Source: Butyricicoccus pullicaecorum DSM 23266 (GTDB taxonomy: Bacteria > Bacillota > Clostridia > Oscillospirales > Butyricicoccaceae). Taken from it: a stretch of 64,000 nucleotides of DNA. Position numbers and translations under genes: made by a program. Numbering within the stretch: position 1 is the first letter of the stretch; each line of letters starts with the position of its first letter. The notes under the pieces were generated by a model, which searched no databases, had not been told where the DNA came from, and was given only the letters and a program-made list of their open reading frames with translations. Below are positions 45,752 through 57,871 of the stretch, piece after piece. The stretch spans positions 62,001 to 126,000 of the forward strand of contig NZ_FUXW01000005.1 in assembly GCF_900167005.1 (NCBI RefSeq), given 5' to 3'.

Positions 45752-46204
45752 TCACATGGTTACATGCCGCGCAAGGAAACTGGCGGCGGTCTGGCTGAGT
45801 TTGCTCTCGACCTCGGTGGCCACCATGTCGGTGCTGTCCGACAGGAGCGCGACGCAGCCGGTTACATCGCCCTCGGAGATGATGGGAGCGGCGACGACGA
45901 CCTGATAGGGGTCGTTGTCAGATACGTGCAGGGTGTCATCCGAGCCGGTGTGCTCGTAGATGTGGCGCTGCTCCATGAGGGTTTCCAGGTCGTTCGAGAT
46001 AGCCTTTTCAAAGATATCCTTTTTGGCACCGCCCGCGGCAGCGATGACCGCATCACGGTCACAGATGGCGCACGACAGACCAGCCGTTCGCGACAGTGCC
46101 TCGGCCAGCTCGCCCGCAAAGGTGCCCAGCTCGCCCATGGGCGAATATTTCTTGAAGATGACCTCGCCGTCGCGGTCGGTGTAGATCTCCAGCGGATCGC
46201 CGTC
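45752..46204 (-). other. spoVT: SpoVT-derived 3' segment; presumed attachment-site junction at about 46204
   Basis: Coding segment homologous to the SpoVT C-terminus, followed by a terminator. The homology begins at DGDPLEIY, corresponding to about residue 31 of SpoVT, marking where an integrating element most likely crossed over. Confidence 0.75.
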
Positions 46205-47905
46205 ACTGATAACATTGGCATGAAACACCTTGTCCGGGCGCTTGTTCGACGACTGGACAATGGTGACGGGCGCGATATGCTCCATGCCGTTCTTAAAATT
46301 TACGGCATCCTCCAAAGTACCTGCCCGCAGGATAGCATCGACATCGGCCTGCAGCTCGATCTCCAGATGATCCTCAAAGACCTTGATCTGTCGGATAATA
46401 AGCTCCAGATCATTCCGCTCGAGCGGGTTCTTGTTCAGGATGTCGGAAAAGACATCCATCGCCGTGCGGGCGGCACGGTTGACCTGAATGATGGTGTTGC
46501 GCTTGTCCGATAGCATATCAATCTGGTGGCGAATGCCCTCAATCTTCTTTTGCAGCTCGGCCTCAAGTTCATCATAGGTTTCTTCCAGCAGCTCTTCCTG
46601 ATCGGGGTGCTTCATCAGGTCGCGGATGCGCTGGCGCTTAGTTGCTTTTAACTCGTTCTGCAGATCGACCAGAACCTCTGCCAGATGATCGGCGCTCTGC
46701 TCGGTCTCGGTCACGTCCTCCTGCTCACGGGCGAGATCCTGATTGAGCCGCTCCAGCATGTCCGCGGAATGCTCCATCACCTGCCGGATGTAGCTTTTGA
46801 GCAGCTCGTCGAGCTTGTCCGTCCGGATGTGATGCGAGGTGCATCCCGCTCGCCCGCGACGGTGGTAGGAACCGCAGGTGTACGCACTCTTGAGATCCTT
46901 GCGGCTCATGGCAAACATGGGACTGCCGCAGTCGCCGCAGACCAGAAAACCGGAGTACACATTGTCGTACTTTTTGATGCCGCGATAGTGAGAGGTTGTG
47001 CGCTTTTCGCGCAGGGCGCGGGTGACCGCGAACGTGCGGTAATCAATGATTGCTTGATGATGGTTCTCGATCACGATCTGCTCATCCTCGGCCTGCCGGA
47101 CATCCTTACCGTTGATCTTCTTGCGCGTGTACTTACCCTGACGCAGCGTGCCGATGTAAAAGTCGTTGTCCAGAATACCCTGTACGGTCACAATCGCCCA
47201 GGATGCCTTGACCGCACGCTTGTATTCCTCACCAGCCGCCTCTTTGCGGTCACGCTCGGCCATGCGCGGGGTCGGGATGCCTTGCTCAGTCAGATAATTT
47301 GCAATTTTTTTGTAACCCCAGCCTTCCTCGTTATACAGGCGGAAGATCGTGCGCACAATGTCGGCCTCGGTGGGGACGATCTCAAACTCCTGCCGCTTGT
47401 TGATGATGTATCCGTAGGGCGCGGCGCAGATCCACTTGCCGTCAGCCTGTCGGCGCTTGATGACATTTTTTACCTTTTTGCTGGTATCGGTGACCGGCAT
47501 CTCGTTGATGAGGAACTGAAATTGGATTTTCAGCCAGTCATCGTCGTTAGGGAAGTCGATGCCGTCACCGATGGAAATGATGCGCACGCCGGCATCACGC
47601 AGATCTTCCAGCTCAACCAGACCACGGCTGTTGCGGCGCGAAAAACGGGAAAAATCCTTGACGATCAGGATTTCATACTTGTGTCCCATCAGCTTTTTGC
47701 GCAGTGCCTGATAGCCCTCGCGCTGTTCGAACGTGTAACCAGAACGGTCGCGATCCTCGTAGAAGGTGAGAGTACTGCCCGGGAATTTCTGTCTGACAAA
47801 GTCCTGAATGATCGCCTTCTGGTTTTCGATGGACACGTTGTCCCGATCCAGATCGTCATCGACCGAAATTCGGCAGTAGCCTGCAATGTCAAATTTTTCG
47901 ATCAT
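45752..47905 (-). CDS. Large serine recombinase fused in frame to the SpoVT body
   Basis: 717 residues. Residues 1-150 are a serine-resolvase catalytic domain (YCRISVDDD with nucleophile Ser about 14; IVKDFSRFSRRN; GDGIDF), then the recombinase domain (about 160-290), a zinc ribbon (CGDCGSP...CGSYHRRGRAGC) and coiled coils. Residues 568-717 (45752-46204) are unmistakably SpoVT from DGDPLEIYTDRDGEVIFKKYSP to its end, including the GAF-like ICDRDAVIAAAGG...VAAPIISEGD...QTAASFLARH. The first 30 or so SpoVT residues, i.e. most of the AbrB swapped-hairpin DNA-binding part, are missing and not seen elsewhere in the window. Stop of RhuM overlaps its start as ATGA. Confidence 0.92.
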   Translation of the reverse strand: MIEKFDIAGYCRISVDDDLDRDNVSIENQKAIIQDFVRQKFPGSTLTFYEDRDRSGYTFEQREGYQALRKKLMGHKYEILIVKDFSRFSRRNSRGLVELEDLRDAGVRIISIGDGIDFPNDDDWLKIQFQFLINEMPVTDTSKKVKNVIKRRQADGKWICAAPYGYIINKRQEFEIVPTEADIVRTIFRLYNEEGWGYKKIANYLTEQGIPTPRMAERDRKEAAGEEYKRAVKASWAIVTVQGILDNDFYIGTLRQGKYTRKKINGKDVRQAEDEQIVIENHHQAIIDYRTFAVTRALREKRTTSHYRGIKKYDNVYSGFLVCGDCGSPMFAMSRKDLKSAYTCGSYHRRGRAGCTSHHIRTDKLDELLKSYIRQVMEHSADMLERLNQDLAREQEDVTETEQSADHLAEVLVDLQNELKATKRQRIRDLMKHPDQEELLEETYDELEAELQKKIEGIRHQIDMLSDKRNTIIQVNRAARTAMDVFSDILNKNPLERNDLELIIRQIKVFEDHLEIELQADVDAILRAGTLEDAVNFKNGMEHIAPVTIVQSSNKRPDKVFHANVISDGDPLEIYTDRDGEVIFKKYSPMGELGTFAGELAEALSRTAGLSCAICDRDAVIAAAGGAKKDIFEKAISNDLETLMEQRHIYEHTGSDDTLHVSDNDPYQVVVAAPIISEGDVTGCVALLSDSTDMVATEVESKLSQTAASFLARHVTM

Positions 47906-52657: not shown

Positions 52658-52694
52658 AAAATAAAAATATAAATGCATGAATGGAGGTATCCAG

Positions 52695-54677
52695 ATGTTT
52701 GATTTCCTTCCACTGTATCAAAACCCGGCAAACGCATCCCCGGATGTTGCCGACGCACTTTATAATTTCTTTAAGCGAGTACGTTTGTACTCCACTCGAT
52801 ATAACGTCAACTGGAAGAATCGCTACTGTCTGCTTCTGGAGGTGTGCGATAAACTGGAGCATATTCTGACACAAGATGAGCCTCTGTGCGATGCTTCACT
52901 TGCAGAACCTCCCGAAGATTTTCAAACGCTTTTTCAGCTTTTGACCTATACGATCTGTGATGAAGATTTCCTCTTCGATGAAGTAGGTCTGCAAATGTCA
53001 CCGCGTTGGAGCGAGATTTTTGGCAGCAAGGAAAAGCCATTTGATACGTTGGATCCCAATGAAACATTTCCTGTTTTCACACTGACTGGTTGTAAATCAC
53101 GCGCCGCGGCTATAAATAGTTGGAAAATAACGCATGAAAACTGCCAAGCTTTTGGTTTTTCTATGATTGATTTGCGCAATGCGTACTTAACCATCCTCGA
53201 TATTCGCAGAAAACTAAAGGAACATAAAACACAAGAACAGAATTTCCCTACAGAACCCTCATCCTGTGCGGAACCTTTTCTTTTTAAACCGTTGTTCGCT
53301 TCTATCACGATGTTTTGTAAAAAGTACGGTATTCCATCCGACCGTATTCCTTGTGAAAAAGTCAAAAACATCGATCGAATCGCCCAAGAAAACTATGTCA
53401 TTCGTCAGCTGGGACCGCTCTTCTGCTTCTTCGCCATCAGATCAAACCACAACATTTATACAGCAGATGAATTTTATGTAGATCTGAAACACAATGATAG
53501 CATTTTTGTACGTAAAAATCCCAAGCGAGAGTTTCAAAGCTCTTATGAGGCGTATCAGGAATTTGCATTGGCTACTGAGATATGGAATACAACCGTTTCA
53601 TTGATGACTACATTCGGTACCTTACCGGATGTAACGGTACAATACCAGCTAAATCCACACAGGCTGTTGGCCGCGATACAATATCAGCTGCAACTTAACT
53701 TGCCGAATGAAGAAGTCATAGAAGCGGCTAACATGTGTGACAAGGCTTGGCAGACCCCCTCGTTCAAGTCCGAATTGCAACAATATAATTGCAAGTCATG
53801 TCCTGATGCGATTGTGTTGGGAGAAATCTTGAATGCATTCATCACTATTTTTCGTGCACAGACACGGAGTCTGAGCAATGATCCTGCTATTCATAAAGCG
53901 AGAGACTTAAAACAAGCGCTGCATATCATTTATCAGTATGGTCTGGTAAATCCAAACGTTATCCAGAATGGATATTCTGCGGTTGAACTTCCGACAGATA
54001 TCATAAATAATGCGTCCGGACAAGCTGACTATAACTTCTCAGATCAGCAGTATGATGCCATTCAACAGACGATTTTACATCAATACGGTTATGAATATGA
54101 CTTAAATCAGCTTGCTTTTTGGCTTATCACATTACATACGCCTTTTAATCAATCTCTTACTGAATTCGAATCCATGCGTAAGGAATTTTATCTGCAGAAG
54201 ACGGTGTTCTACATTTGTGCGAACTTAATTCACAAATCATTTGAACGATTCCGCGAATATTTTGGAATGCAGGATGCACCGCTTGCAGTATATAACTCTG
54301 ATTTGCGAAAAGATATCTTAAAACTTCGGACGATCATTGCACAGAAGCTGGATCTCTCCATGCTGCATGCTTTTTTTACCGATTTTTATCGTTTCAGCGA
54401 ATTCGCTGAAACTTCACACGGTATAGGTGGATATTCTTTCGAATCCTCCACTACAGGATCAGCTGGTAGATGGAATGCTATACTTGCAGAGTATGTCTTT
54501 CAATTTTGTTCTAAACAACAAAAAATAAACTCCCTTTCTTTAAAGAGCTTCCATTATGCAGACCACGTATTAAAACAGGCTGTTTTATCCGAATTTATAG
54601 ACAGCGCTGAGCAGCTTGTATGTGAACGTATTTTTCAAATTTTACAGCTGGTGCTCCTGAAACTGTATCCTCTGTAA
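52695..54677 (+). CDS. Orphan 660-residue protein of unknown function
   Basis: Intact soluble-looking protein, helix-rich and Phe/Tyr/Gln-rich, no signal peptide, no membrane helix and no recognisable catalytic motif. Scattered Cys (CKSCPDA, FCKKYG) do not form a clear zinc site. Codon use is much more AT-rich than that of the surrounding genome. Single gene with its own promoter and terminator, between a deletion scar and the amidoligase operon. ATG at 52695 follows GGAGG by seven bases. Recent transfer is likely; function not assigned. Confidence 0.85.
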   Translation: MFDFLPLYQNPANASPDVADALYNFFKRVRLYSTRYNVNWKNRYCLLLEVCDKLEHILTQDEPLCDASLAEPPEDFQTLFQLLTYTICDEDFLFDEVGLQMSPRWSEIFGSKEKPFDTLDPNETFPVFTLTGCKSRAAAINSWKITHENCQAFGFSMIDLRNAYLTILDIRRKLKEHKTQEQNFPTEPSSCAEPFLFKPLFASITMFCKKYGIPSDRIPCEKVKNIDRIAQENYVIRQLGPLFCFFAIRSNHNIYTADEFYVDLKHNDSIFVRKNPKREFQSSYEAYQEFALATEIWNTTVSLMTTFGTLPDVTVQYQLNPHRLLAAIQYQLQLNLPNEEVIEAANMCDKAWQTPSFKSELQQYNCKSCPDAIVLGEILNAFITIFRAQTRSLSNDPAIHKARDLKQALHIIYQYGLVNPNVIQNGYSAVELPTDIINNASGQADYNFSDQQYDAIQQTILHQYGYEYDLNQLAFWLITLHTPFNQSLTEFESMRKEFYLQKTVFYICANLIHKSFERFREYFGMQDAPLAVYNSDLRKDILKLRTIIAQKLDLSMLHAFFTDFYRFSEFAETSHGIGGYSFESSTTGSAGRWNAILAEYVFQFCSKQQKINSLSLKSFHYADHVLKQAVLSEFIDSAEQLVCERIFQILQLVLLKLYPL

Positions 54678-54683
54678 TATGAA

Positions 54684-54718
54684 CCGGGATGAGCCCAATC
54701 AATTTAGACTCATCCCGG
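54684..54718. terminator. Bidirectional terminator between orphan gene and amidoligase operon
   Basis: CCGGGATGAG/CTCATCCCGG perfect stem, 15-base loop, at a convergent junction without the repeat element. Confidence 0.7.
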
Positions 54719-54730
54719 CGTTCAATTCTT

Positions 54731-54811
54731 TCATTCGACCGTACTGTCGTCCTCGTCTTCCAGCAGGTCGATGATCTCACCGATCACGACCAGAATGGTC
54801 CCCAGACCCAT
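54731..54811 (-). CDS. 26-residue acidic-tailed peptide
   Basis: ATG at 54811 with AGGAG eight bases upstream, 20 bp after the amidotransferase stop and on the same strand. Hydrophobic front half (MGLGTILVVIGEIIDLL) and acidic tail (EDEDDSTVE). Too short for homology. An overlapping frame from 54819 would give an 11-residue Trp-rich peptide with poorer ribosome-binding-site spacing. Candidate substrate or regulator of the amidoligase system; inference. Confidence 0.5.
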   Translation of the reverse strand: MGLGTILVVIGEIIDLLEDEDDSTVE

Positions 54812-54831
54812 AGGCTCATCTCCTCTCCTTA

Positions 54832-55779
54832 TTAATAGTAAGCGCAAAGCAACTCGGCCGCCGCTTCGTGCAGCAGCGCCGGATTATAGAGCAGCTCCTC
54901 GATTTCGCACGGGTCGTATCCTAGATCGAGCAGCGCCAGCACTTCATCTTCGGACACGCCCATGGACTTCGCGGCCTGAATCAGCAGATCAGTCTGCCCG
55001 TCTATCGCTTCCGGCTCGTCCACTTCATCAAGCCACGAAAGCATCCGAAACCGAGGATTGCGCCAAAAGTGCTCGAAACTGCGATTTGGATTAAAGTGTG
55101 CAAAGCTACACTGGCCAGCTTGATCAATCTTCAAAATATCGCCCTCTTCGGTATGGATTTCTTCCCGGTGATGCAGGTGCAGCTTACGCATCGCCTGCCG
55201 CAGAATTTCTTCGGTCGAGGCGTACAGGTAGAATCCGTCGAAATCAAAGATCGCGAGCGGGTTATCGCCACGAACAAAATACAGGTTGTCGTCTCGGTCG
55301 AGCACCGTAAATACAAAAGAACCCTGGATCTTCTCCGCCATCGTGCTGATGGTCGTGAAGTCCAGGGTTTTCTGCTGTTCGAGCAGCTGCACAGCGACAT
55401 AGCTGTCGGTCTGGATCCGGGTATCCGGAAGATTCTCGGTCTGTCGAAGCTCTCTGTCGTTCCACAATACGCCGTTGTGCGCCAAGGCGAAAGAGCCAGT
55501 CGACCAAGGGTGGTTATTGTAGTTGTCTGCCGGTCTGCCTTGGGTGGCAAGTCGGGTGTGTCCCATGATGACACTCACACCATTAGGCACATGGAACTTT
55601 AGCTTATGTGCGGCGAGCGGGCGCTTATAGACCTTGATGCTGCCGCCAAAGTTGTAGGCAATTCCCGTCGCGTCCGTGCCGCGCACCTCGCATTCCTTGC
55701 CAAGCACCTGCAAAATCCGGTTTTTCTGCCGTGTTGTCAGGACATTTTGATAGTCAATCAATCCGAATAAGCTACACAT
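54832..55779 (-). CDS. Class II glutamine amidotransferase
   Basis: 315 residues of the N-terminal-nucleophile fold: Cys2 (MCSLFG) becomes the nucleophile after Met removal; RGTDATGIAY, GHTRLATQG, NNHPW and LAHNGVLWND are the glutamine-site motifs. Releases ammonia from glutamine. A C-terminal tail (about 245-315) is helical and acidic. Begins one base after the amidoligase stop (TAA-ATG), so the two are a translated unit: this enzyme would feed ammonia to, or process amides made by, the ligase. Confidence 0.88.
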   Translation of the reverse strand: MCSLFGLIDYQNVLTTRQKNRILQVLGKECEVRGTDATGIAYNFGGSIKVYKRPLAAHKLKFHVPNGVSVIMGHTRLATQGRPADNYNNHPWSTGSFALAHNGVLWNDRELRQTENLPDTRIQTDSYVAVQLLEQQKTLDFTTISTMAEKIQGSFVFTVLDRDDNLYFVRGDNPLAIFDFDGFYLYASTEEILRQAMRKLHLHHREEIHTEEGDILKIDQAGQCSFAHFNPNRSFEHFWRNPRFRMLSWLDEVDEPEAIDGQTDLLIQAAKSMGVSEDEVLALLDLGYDPCEIEELLYNPALLHEAAAELLCAYY

Positions 55780-56892
55780 TTAATCGTCCTCCTCGTAAGC
55801 AATCGGGTCATTTTTATACAGATTGCGCTCTTTCAGGTACTGAATGAGCTCCGGCTCGTGAATCCGGTCAAGGAATCCATGCCAGGACAGCTCCTGCAGC
55901 TCCTCGTCAGACAATAAAACAGCCACGTCGCAGACGGCATTGACCAACTGCAGCGTGGCGATTAGGGTATTATATTTGAGCGTGCCGCGGAAAATCCGGA
56001 TTTCGACAGTGTCCTCGTTTGTCAGATTGACCGCGGTATATCGTCCGGCACGGGAGTCTTTCGCCGATTCCATCACAGCTTTCGGCGATAATTTCATGCC
56101 GTATCGTGCTGCCCAGCGGTTGATCTGCCGCTCGGTGCGTCGGGAGAATCGCAGCAGCTCAGTCCAGAATTTCTCGACGAAGTATAGCAGTCGAGCAATC
56201 GACAGTTCCTGCTCCTGTTCATTCTCTCCGAAGGCTGCACGGGAGATGTGGACGTGCAGTCCGCAGGTTGTAGTGCGGTGGCTGAGATAACCAAGCCCGA
56301 CCGCCTTACGCAGGACGTTTTTCCATGGCATCTGTTCCATATGGTACTGCAAGGTCATCGGATGCGTGACCAGCTCCATGCCACAGTCCAGCGAACCGTC
56401 GCTTTTAATGTACAGATTCTGCGCGTCCTCGTTGGCGACATTCAGGATTTCACCGGCATTCTTGCGGCTCTTGCCGTTGCCGTCGATCTCCAGTTCCACG
56501 CCAAAGAAACGTTCATTGCTGCGTTCGCCGTGAAAAATCAGCCGTGGTGTGTAGCTGTAATCGTGGATCGTTGTTTGCTGCAAACGAGCTTGCAGGCAAT
56601 CATAACATAGCGGTTCGTCCTCGTCGTCATCTTCGTAGTAGGCATCGCTGTACGAAATGACACGCCCGCAGCGTTCGCAATGTGTGTAGTGTCGTTCGTA
56701 GCAACGCTCACACAGAGTGATGTTTTCGTCTCCCTGATCGTCCGACAAGAACAGACGCTCGCCGCAACAATCACAGACCGTCGTGTATGTGTCCACGCAG
56801 TCCGGGCACAAAATCGTGTCTGCAACCATCGTGCAGGCATCCACCGGGACTCGTTCGCCGCAGCGCTCACAGACATAAAAATGATCGTTCAT
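55780..56892 (-). CDS. Amidoligase (glutamine-synthetase-like fold) with zinc-ribbon array
   Basis: 370 residues. Residues 1-105 hold three paired CxxC zinc ribbons (CERCGERVP/CPDC, CDCCGERL/CERC/CERCGR, CYDC). Residues 125-345 are an Amidoligase_2 domain: FFGVELEIDG, KSDGSLDCGMELVTHP, TCGLHVHISR, NRWAARYG, YTAVNLTNEDTVEIRIFRGTL. Such ligases form amide bonds between carboxylates and amines with ATP. Typical of phages and integrative elements. Middle gene of a four-gene leftward operon. Confidence 0.88.
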   Translation of the reverse strand: MNDHFYVCERCGERVPVDACTMVADTILCPDCVDTYTTVCDCCGERLFLSDDQGDENITLCERCYERHYTHCERCGRVISYSDAYYEDDDEDEPLCYDCLQARLQQTTIHDYSYTPRLIFHGERSNERFFGVELEIDGNGKSRKNAGEILNVANEDAQNLYIKSDGSLDCGMELVTHPMTLQYHMEQMPWKNVLRKAVGLGYLSHRTTTCGLHVHISRAAFGENEQEQELSIARLLYFVEKFWTELLRFSRRTERQINRWAARYGMKLSPKAVMESAKDSRAGRYTAVNLTNEDTVEIRIFRGTLKYNTLIATLQLVNAVCDVAVLLSDEELQELSWHGFLDRIHEPELIQYLKERNLYKNDPIAYEEDD

Positions 56893-56906
56893 AATGCAGT
56901 CCTCCT

Positions 56907-57188
56907 TTAATATTCTTCTGCCAACAGCATGGTGATGTGATCGGGATCTTCGATGATGTAGACTTTGGCATCAACAGGCTGTTCGCCCGGAATCTCGACA
57001 ACATGCTTGTACTCTGGCTGCTCTTGAATATGCTCAATGCGCTGGCGGTCGCCATCACAGGATAATCGGAAGATTTGCAAGTAATCCCGCTCGGGCACTT
57101 CCATGCTGTCGCGCATGTACCACAGAAGTGTTTGCAGCCAAGGCGGAATGGTGGTCTGAATACCACGGGTAATGTAACGGGGTTTCAT
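56907..57188 (-). CDS. DUF960-family protein
   Basis: 93 residues; PRYITRGIQTTIPPWLQTLLWYMRD, DYLQIFRLSC, and QPEYKHVVEIPG match the DUF960 family found on plasmids and phages of Firmicutes. No known function. First gene of the amidoligase operon, 14 bp before the ligase. Start after AAGGAG. Confidence 0.8.
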   Translation of the reverse strand: MKPRYITRGIQTTIPPWLQTLLWYMRDSMEVPERDYLQIFRLSCDGDRQRIEHIQEQPEYKHVVEIPGEQPVDAKVYIIEDPDHITMLLAEEY

Positions 57189-57871
57189 CTGGATCAGCTC
57201 CTTATAGAATAGTAAAAGCCGAAGGATTTCTCCTTCGGCTTCATCGTTATAATATGTATATGATATTGGCTCAGATTCACATCAGAAATCGTTAGTTGTT
57301 TGGTGGAATACGTGTCATTTATGTATCCGTATATACCTACACATAAGACATTCAGAGAAATAAACCATTTTGCCCCTGTTGCATTAACATAAGTTAATAC
57401 AGCCGAAAAACAAACCATGTATAATGTAGTCAAAAGGTAGGAGGATATCGTATGAATATAGATGGATTTTGCACGAAAGAATTAGGCATAACGGATCCTT
57501 AATTGCTGCATGATTGGCAAAACAACGGAGAGATAAAGCATGTATAGAAAGGTGAAATCATACAGGATATTGGAGATATTGACAGGTTCATATTCTGATG
57601 GATGGCTGTTAAGAGGTTTCTTCTTTGATCTAAACGGCAAAGAAATTACGGATTACTTTGGTTTTATACCAGAAACACAGGTTATATCGTGCTAGGGTTT
57701 GAATATGCCCACTCCACTCTGCATTAAAGCATTGGAAACAAGTACATTGCTCATAATTCCTCTGGATGTTATTCAAACTCTGCTTGAAACGAACTTGGAA
57801 ATGAATCGATTTTATAACCGATTGCTTCACACAGCGTTGATAATGCACTAGCAGAGTAAGATTATGTTGGT
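57189..57871. other. Degenerate AT-rich stretch
   Basis: No intact gene. Contains a dyad TTAAC-ATAA-GTTAA (57384-57397), a TATAAT (57419-57424) and AGGAGG before an ATG at 57452, but that frame closes after 16 codons. Further short frames separated by stops suggest decayed coding sequence of unknown origin. Confidence 0.5.

Follow-up and report, generated by a model that had tools for sequence, protein, structure and literature searches.

Pairs of an amidoligase and a glutaminase occur widely in phages and mobile elements, and we know of no target identified for them since they were first predicted. Such a pair, accompanied by a DUF960 gene and an open reading frame (ORF) of only 26 amino acids (aa), is encoded on the minus strand at positions 54731-57188 of the DNA stretch analyzed here (64,000 nucleotides of the Butyricicoccus pullicaecorum DSM 23266 genome, referred to as the window). 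The locus raises the question of what the two enzymes modify, and whether the short frame, of a size class (below 30 codons) that normally goes unannotated, is a gene with a part in this modification. It is proposed here, tentatively and with somewhat less than even confidence, that a mobile moron of integrative elements encodes a glutamine-dependent amidating ligase together with a dedicated helical micropeptide that serves docking or membrane anchoring.

Operon structure and encoded enzymes

The re-derived coordinates agree with the sequence-only reading of the locus, which had described four tightly packed genes with 14, 0 and 20 bp between them: the genes of the DUF960 protein, the amidoligase (AL), the class II glutamine amidotransferase (GAT) and the 26-aa ORF follow each other in this order. 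Its domain assignments and its triple zinc ribbon were likewise correct, as judged by Pfam matches and three CxxC...CxxC pairs. The 93-aa DUF960 protein (56907-57188, minus strand) matched Pfam DUF960 (PF06124) over profile positions 2-94 of 94 (1.6e-24; 86.7 bits, cut-off 25). Comparison of the family profile with the PDB returned a single, weak match to an uncharacterized protein (2r41), and an identity with the single-stranded-DNA-binding protein LP1413 of SCC elements was not borne out.

The AL (370 aa; 55780-56892, minus strand) is predicted to be an ATP-dependent carboxylate-amine ligase of the glutamine synthetase (GS) superfamily on the basis of its Amidoligase_2 match (PF12224; 4.7e-10, 40.2 bits, cut-off 22), its modeled fold and its invariant residues. 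Cysteine spacing and conservation indicate three tandem LIM-like zinc ribbons in its N-terminal part (Cys8-Cys99; 56596..56871, minus strand): the twelve cysteines (8/11-29/32, 40/43-61/64, 72/75-96/99) were at least 90% conserved among 65 homologues. In the GS-like catalytic domain (residues 124-362; 55807..56523, minus strand), E133, E135, H213, H215, R252, N289, E297 and R299 were invariant in the 65 sequences, and the corresponding ELE, HxH and ExR motifs are predicted to be metal/ATP-type residues. The AlphaFold2 model built on the 65 homologues (mean pLDDT 91) predicts a GS fold: residues 124-370 were matched to glutamine synthetases at Z ~13 and to YbdK at Z 12.6, and the pupylation enzymes Dop and PafA were among the best Foldseek matches. 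The GS-type active-site residues and the fold of the ligase, on which the sequence-only reading had made its interpretation depend, are intact according to conservation and model.

The GAT (315 aa; 54832-55779, minus strand) matched Pfam GATase_6 (2.5e-13) and exhibits the attributes of class II enzymes, i.e. a cysteine directly following the initiator methionine, HTR and HNG motifs and the aspartate (C2, R76, N102, G103 and D125 were invariant). Its model (pLDDT 91) matched the glutaminase domains of GFAT and PurF at Z 25-26 (GFAT 26), and an intact class II glutaminase of the Ntn-hydrolase fold is predicted. A helical C-terminal domain (residues 258-314; 54838..55008, minus strand) is a general feature of these GATs; its weak RuvA_C match, below the Pfam cut-off, suggests a UBA-like fold. 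In a Butyricicoccus avistercoris MAG (loci L042 / L061) the GAT gene is broken after approximately residue 88 by an integrase-bearing insertion.

The association of these genes, for which the sequence-only reading had proposed a neighborhood search, is conserved: 57 of approximately 100 genomic AL genes were accompanied by both DUF960 and GAT and a further 40 by GAT only. In 83 of 107 operons AL and GAT lie at a distance of only -1 to +4 bp, and translational coupling of the two is predicted for these. This coupling, the five copies in the host genome and the selection on the peptide (see below) show an arrangement that exceeds chance.

Because of the enzyme classes involved, GAT would hydrolyze glutamine and hand the ammonia to AL, which would use ATP to activate a carboxylate as acyl phosphate in its GS-type active site and convert it to a carboxamide. 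The triple zinc ribbon may select or dock the target, for which a protein, a peptide or a peptidoglycan precursor appears likelier than free glutamate. AL-GAT would most likely be a carboxamide synthase that depends on glutamine and has a protein or a peptide-like molecule as its target.

The 26-aa micropeptide

The micropeptide gene (54731-54811, minus strand; MGLGTILVVIGEIIDLLEDEDDSTVE) encodes a hydrophobic/amphipathic helix followed by an acidic tail. In the comparison of six copies, the pN/pS ratio of the peptide frame was 0.065 versus 1.1 and 7.3 in the two other frames, and the variable columns were distributed over codon positions 1/2/3 as 4/0/15. The 26-aa ORF is a real gene under strong purifying selection. 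A profile search for this peptide family in 87 genomes of the host's family (Butyricicoccaceae; matches at E up to 0.002) found 28 peptides, all on the same strand as and no more than ~340 bp downstream of a GAT, and no orphan peptide away from a GAT in these genomes.

In Agathobaculum the micropeptides downstream of GAT (L041, L043, L052, L054, L057, L060, L067) have an apparent ATC/ATT start preceded by a strong Shine-Dalgarno sequence, and the only nearby ATG sits in another, unconserved frame.

The designation of the peptide as acidic in the sequence-only reading holds for the peptides of this lineage, to which the tail is specific and in whose clade the acidic cluster is conserved; it does not extend to the related operons, where the common feature is a short hydrophobic/amphipathic helix and where two peptides (L055 and L076) contain no Asp or Glu at all. 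The helix core is conserved, and variation is greatest at the C-terminus, also between copies with ~87% DNA identity: copies with near-identical helices terminate in DEDE, DDDD, DDSCN or DDSTVE. General C-terminal amidation of the peptide, as one candidate modification, is weakened by these variable ends.

The same ends bear on the idea that AL ligates the peptide to proteins, as PafA does Pup, which is suggested by the placement of Dop and PafA among the closest solved folds to AL and by the small partner encoded beside a GS-like ligase. Such Pup-like tagging is considered highly improbable: the GAT partner implies ammonia as the nucleophile, and the peptide is a hydrophobic helix and not, as in pupylation, a small disordered tag ending in Gly-Gly-Glu/Gln, an end that was absent from the peptide C-termini compared.

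Short peptides in related operons

Related operons encode short peptides as well, at a place that depends on the clade: the gene may follow GAT, lie between AL and GAT, or precede AL or DUF960. In Ruminococcus-type operons, an AL-GAT interval of 130-206 bp encodes a peptide of 39-64 aa with a hydrophobic helix; amphipathic peptides of 27-29 aa precede AL in some Oscillospiraceae, and amphipathic peptides of 32-34 aa precede DUF960 in Lachnospiraceae. The predicted frame had the lowest pN/pS in every peptide group, although only by a narrow margin in the most divergent sets. Of 47 operons that were non-redundant at 80% AL identity, 23 contained a hydrophobic small ORF, compared with 20 of 255 (8%) other genes of the same loci (Fisher p 1.5e-10, with related operons counted as independent). 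The peptide position follows the AL tree (13 label changes; none of 200 shuffles gave as low a number). In a literature search, no description was found of short hydrophobic/amphipathic peptide genes that recur at clade-specific positions in such operons. Small proteins of ~85-100 aa whose C-terminal ends look similar (GxRxGxRxA and the like) are likewise found repeatedly in or beside AL-GAT operons (L098, L116, L123, L134; L093, L101, L105; L079, L133).

Approximately half of the AL-GAT operons are without a recognizable peptide. No conserved candidate was detected upstream or downstream in ~20 of these, even without the hydrophobicity filter, and none was recognized at two phage loci (mycobacteriophage Marvin and ctgrD200). 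In consequence, the peptide is not needed for the core chemistry. Since the peptide is real and related operons carry their own short peptides at lineage-specific positions, it nevertheless probably has a function in the enzyme system and is no mere annotation artifact.

Which part this would be is framed by two alternatives. The sequence-only reading had suggested a self-contained peptide or protein modification system; with the peptide as the substrate of such a system, AL-GAT would amidate its Asp/Glu side chains or its C-terminus and generate a RiPP-like peptide or tag. The co-encoded peptide, always linked in the host's family and under selection, agrees with this, as do the acidic cluster of this clade and the resemblance of the Lachnospiraceae and Oscillospiraceae versions to cationic amphipathic antimicrobial helices. 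Against it, a conserved Asp/Glu or C-terminal modification site, as expected of a RiPP precursor, was not present across the peptides of the different clades, the acidic tail is missing in other clades, the C-termini differ even among near-identical copies, half of the operons lack the peptide, and neither an exporter nor a leader protease was recognized among the recurrent neighbors of the sampled loci. The substrate role is thus unsupported by the comparison, and we regard it as doubtful, if deserving of appreciable weight. The broader formulation, in which AL-GAT of gut Bacillota is a peptide-modification system whose dedicated substrate or amidated effector is the fast-evolving helical micropeptide proper to each lineage, with the 2.5-kb cassette spread between mobile elements, is judged unlikely too.

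Since the helix core is conserved and the acidic residues and the C-terminus vary, we favor docking or membrane anchoring: the micropeptide may be a helical subunit that places or stabilizes the AL-GAT pair. Membrane binding is, however, not obvious for a 26-mer with an acidic run. Under either role, a constrained micropeptide in a lineage-specific place offers a handle for target finding, as pull-down bait or as candidate substrate.

Copies, borders and mobility of the unit

The host genome contains six Amidoligase_2 genes. Four further copies of the unit share 86-87% DNA identity with that of the window over 2.5 kb, their flanks being unrelated to those of the window; the sixth AL-GAT copy (contig C20, L032) is distant, without peptide, and groups with Oscillospiraceae. 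In addition, a decayed copy (C18:430543) and a solo left end of 97 bp (C11:8134) were found. The repeated unit spans a promoter-like motif and a leader hairpin through the stop codon of the peptide, which forms its right border, and the identity among the copies drops to background level 40-60 bp upstream of the leader hairpin and directly past the peptide stop.

The left border is marked by a conserved upstream element (57247..57285, minus strand) with the -10-like motif TATTATAA, in which A-ATA-TATA is invariant in 10 operons. A few bases after this motif, a 5' leader hairpin begins (57215..57242, minus strand; 12-bp stem GAAGCCGAAGGA/TCCTTCGGCTTT, with a T-rich stretch behind it; -22.8 kcal/mol, z -4.8), which is retained in the unit copies of the genome. 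Single-sequence folds, used for this comparison as the MAFFT alignment of the leaders misplaced the stems, revealed that 9 of 12 other Butyricicoccaceae leaders also have a hairpin in this position, though with another stem sequence; the remaining three (L074, L049, L050) did not exhibit the same architecture. A sigma-70 consensus scan of the region gave nothing at the proposed promoter. We read this left part as a putative promoter with a 5' hairpin or attenuator. Just past the peptide stop, a further hairpin (54682..54720, minus strand) may act as terminator; the hairpins that the copies have at this place are unrelated to one another, that of the C31 copy being weak.

Sharp borders and unrelated flanks are among the hallmarks of a phage moron, an independent transcription unit that would also have its own promoter and terminator, for which the -10-like motif and the hairpins past the peptide stop are candidates. 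The unit behaves like a moron that is shuffled among integrative elements. The four-gene set described by the sequence-only reading behaves as one mobile unit, and the cassette illustrates well how a moron-like unit can be amplified in the genome of a single gut bacterium; it also shows that genes of less than 30 codons can be fixed parts of mobile systems. Recurrent neighbors were tyrosine integrases, small serine recombinases, an excisionase-like protein, a relaxase and an AAA protein or RecQ-like helicase; a recombinase was present in 54 of 84 related loci, and one element adjoins a tmRNA gene. Flanking direct repeats (att sites) were found neither in the window nor in L128.

Several further observations concern the surroundings of the copies. 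Two different CRISPR cas3 genes are preceded, in divergent orientation, by an intact copy (L029, C18:204.5 kb) and by the decayed one (L217, C18:430.5 kb); the cas3 gene at L029 belongs to a type I-C locus that includes Csd1. Directly upstream of the C16 copy lies a group II intron (L030, 11725-13660) that carries its reverse transcriptase. Three genomes (window 52677-54677, L041, L044) encode, adjacent to the operon and convergent with it, a protein of 580-670 aa that belongs to no known family; in other copies this place is taken by a protein of 630-870 aa that looks unrelated. In many loci (e.g. L055, L093, L098, L116) a palindromic stretch of ~130 bp separates GAT from the gene of a small serine recombinase and might be the resolution site of this recombinase. 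A large serine recombinase ORF of the window (45752-47905) also contains a SpoVT C-terminal domain (Pfam), an unusual combination.

Across the phylum, a strong AL of the operon's type was present in only 3 of 398 genomes, which fits horizontal spread. This patchy distribution is unexpected for a housekeeping metabolite enzyme, as are the at least 90% conserved triple zinc ribbon and the micropeptide; that AL-GAT merely moves nitrogen into host metabolites, in line with the auxiliary metabolic genes proposed for the AL/GAT of Phage-ZRK32 (PMC10945688), is accordingly held to be very unlikely.

The mobile location would also fit an exclusion function, in which AL-GAT amidates the peptidoglycan stem or another surface precursor and blocks competing phages, the peptide having no special role. 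An envelope modification has been predicted for phage amidoligase/GATase genes, those of phiEco32 among them (Iyer et al. 2009, cited by PMC10580990 and PMC11318856). In the sampled loci, neither glycosyltransferase nor cell-wall genes recurred beside the operon, and the constrained peptide and the zinc ribbons would be left unaccounted for; we consider this reading rather improbable. Less probable still is a toxin-antitoxin module that stabilizes the mobile element, with a toxic amphipathic peptide neutralized by AL-GAT modification (type VII-like): the peptide is small and hydrophobic, and the operons occur in integrative and mobilizable elements and in several copies per genome, but conserved AL and GAT also occur in phages and in operons without peptide, and the peptide gene is the last of the operon in this clade. 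PADLOC, moreover, gave no defense-system match for the three proteins, and a defense system was rejected on the same ground. Under the docking or anchoring reading preferred here, the benefit to the element could lie in a host or competitor component altered in its favor, e.g. for superinfection exclusion.

Comparison with known systems

The DUF960 protein shares its Pfam family and its location in a mobile element with that of the SCCmec ccr complex, in which a published account places DUF960 without assigned function. In SCC, DUF960 occurs with SAUGI and DUF1643 beside recombinase/helicase genes and, unlike in the operon studied here, has no amidoligase neighbor. The Pup-PafA/Dop system likewise combines a GS-superfamily ligase, matching AL in fold, with a small partner, and is set apart from the present operon by the GATase, the zinc ribbons, the mobile location and the missing Pup-like C-terminus of the latter.

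The closest parallels are the AL (PF12224) and GATase (PF13522) pairs of phages, i.e. gp105-gp106 of mycobacteriophage Marvin and those of the OM43 phages MEP401/402 and of Phage-ZRK32, in which a GS-like amidoligase also adjoins a class II GATase in mobile DNA. Neither DUF960 nor a short helical peptide was recognized with these pairs, and the Marvin AL is ~29% identical to that of the operon. The predictions of the phiEco32 type, as relayed by the citing papers, concern the same enzyme classes, the same predicted amide-forming chemistry and a mobile element; the operon described here differs in being a moron of four genes and 2.5 kb, to which a micropeptide under constraint and a hairpin in the leader belong. 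The enzyme pair is thus of a known kind, already present in phages; new are the moron-like cassette and the recurrent micropeptide with its clade-specific placement.
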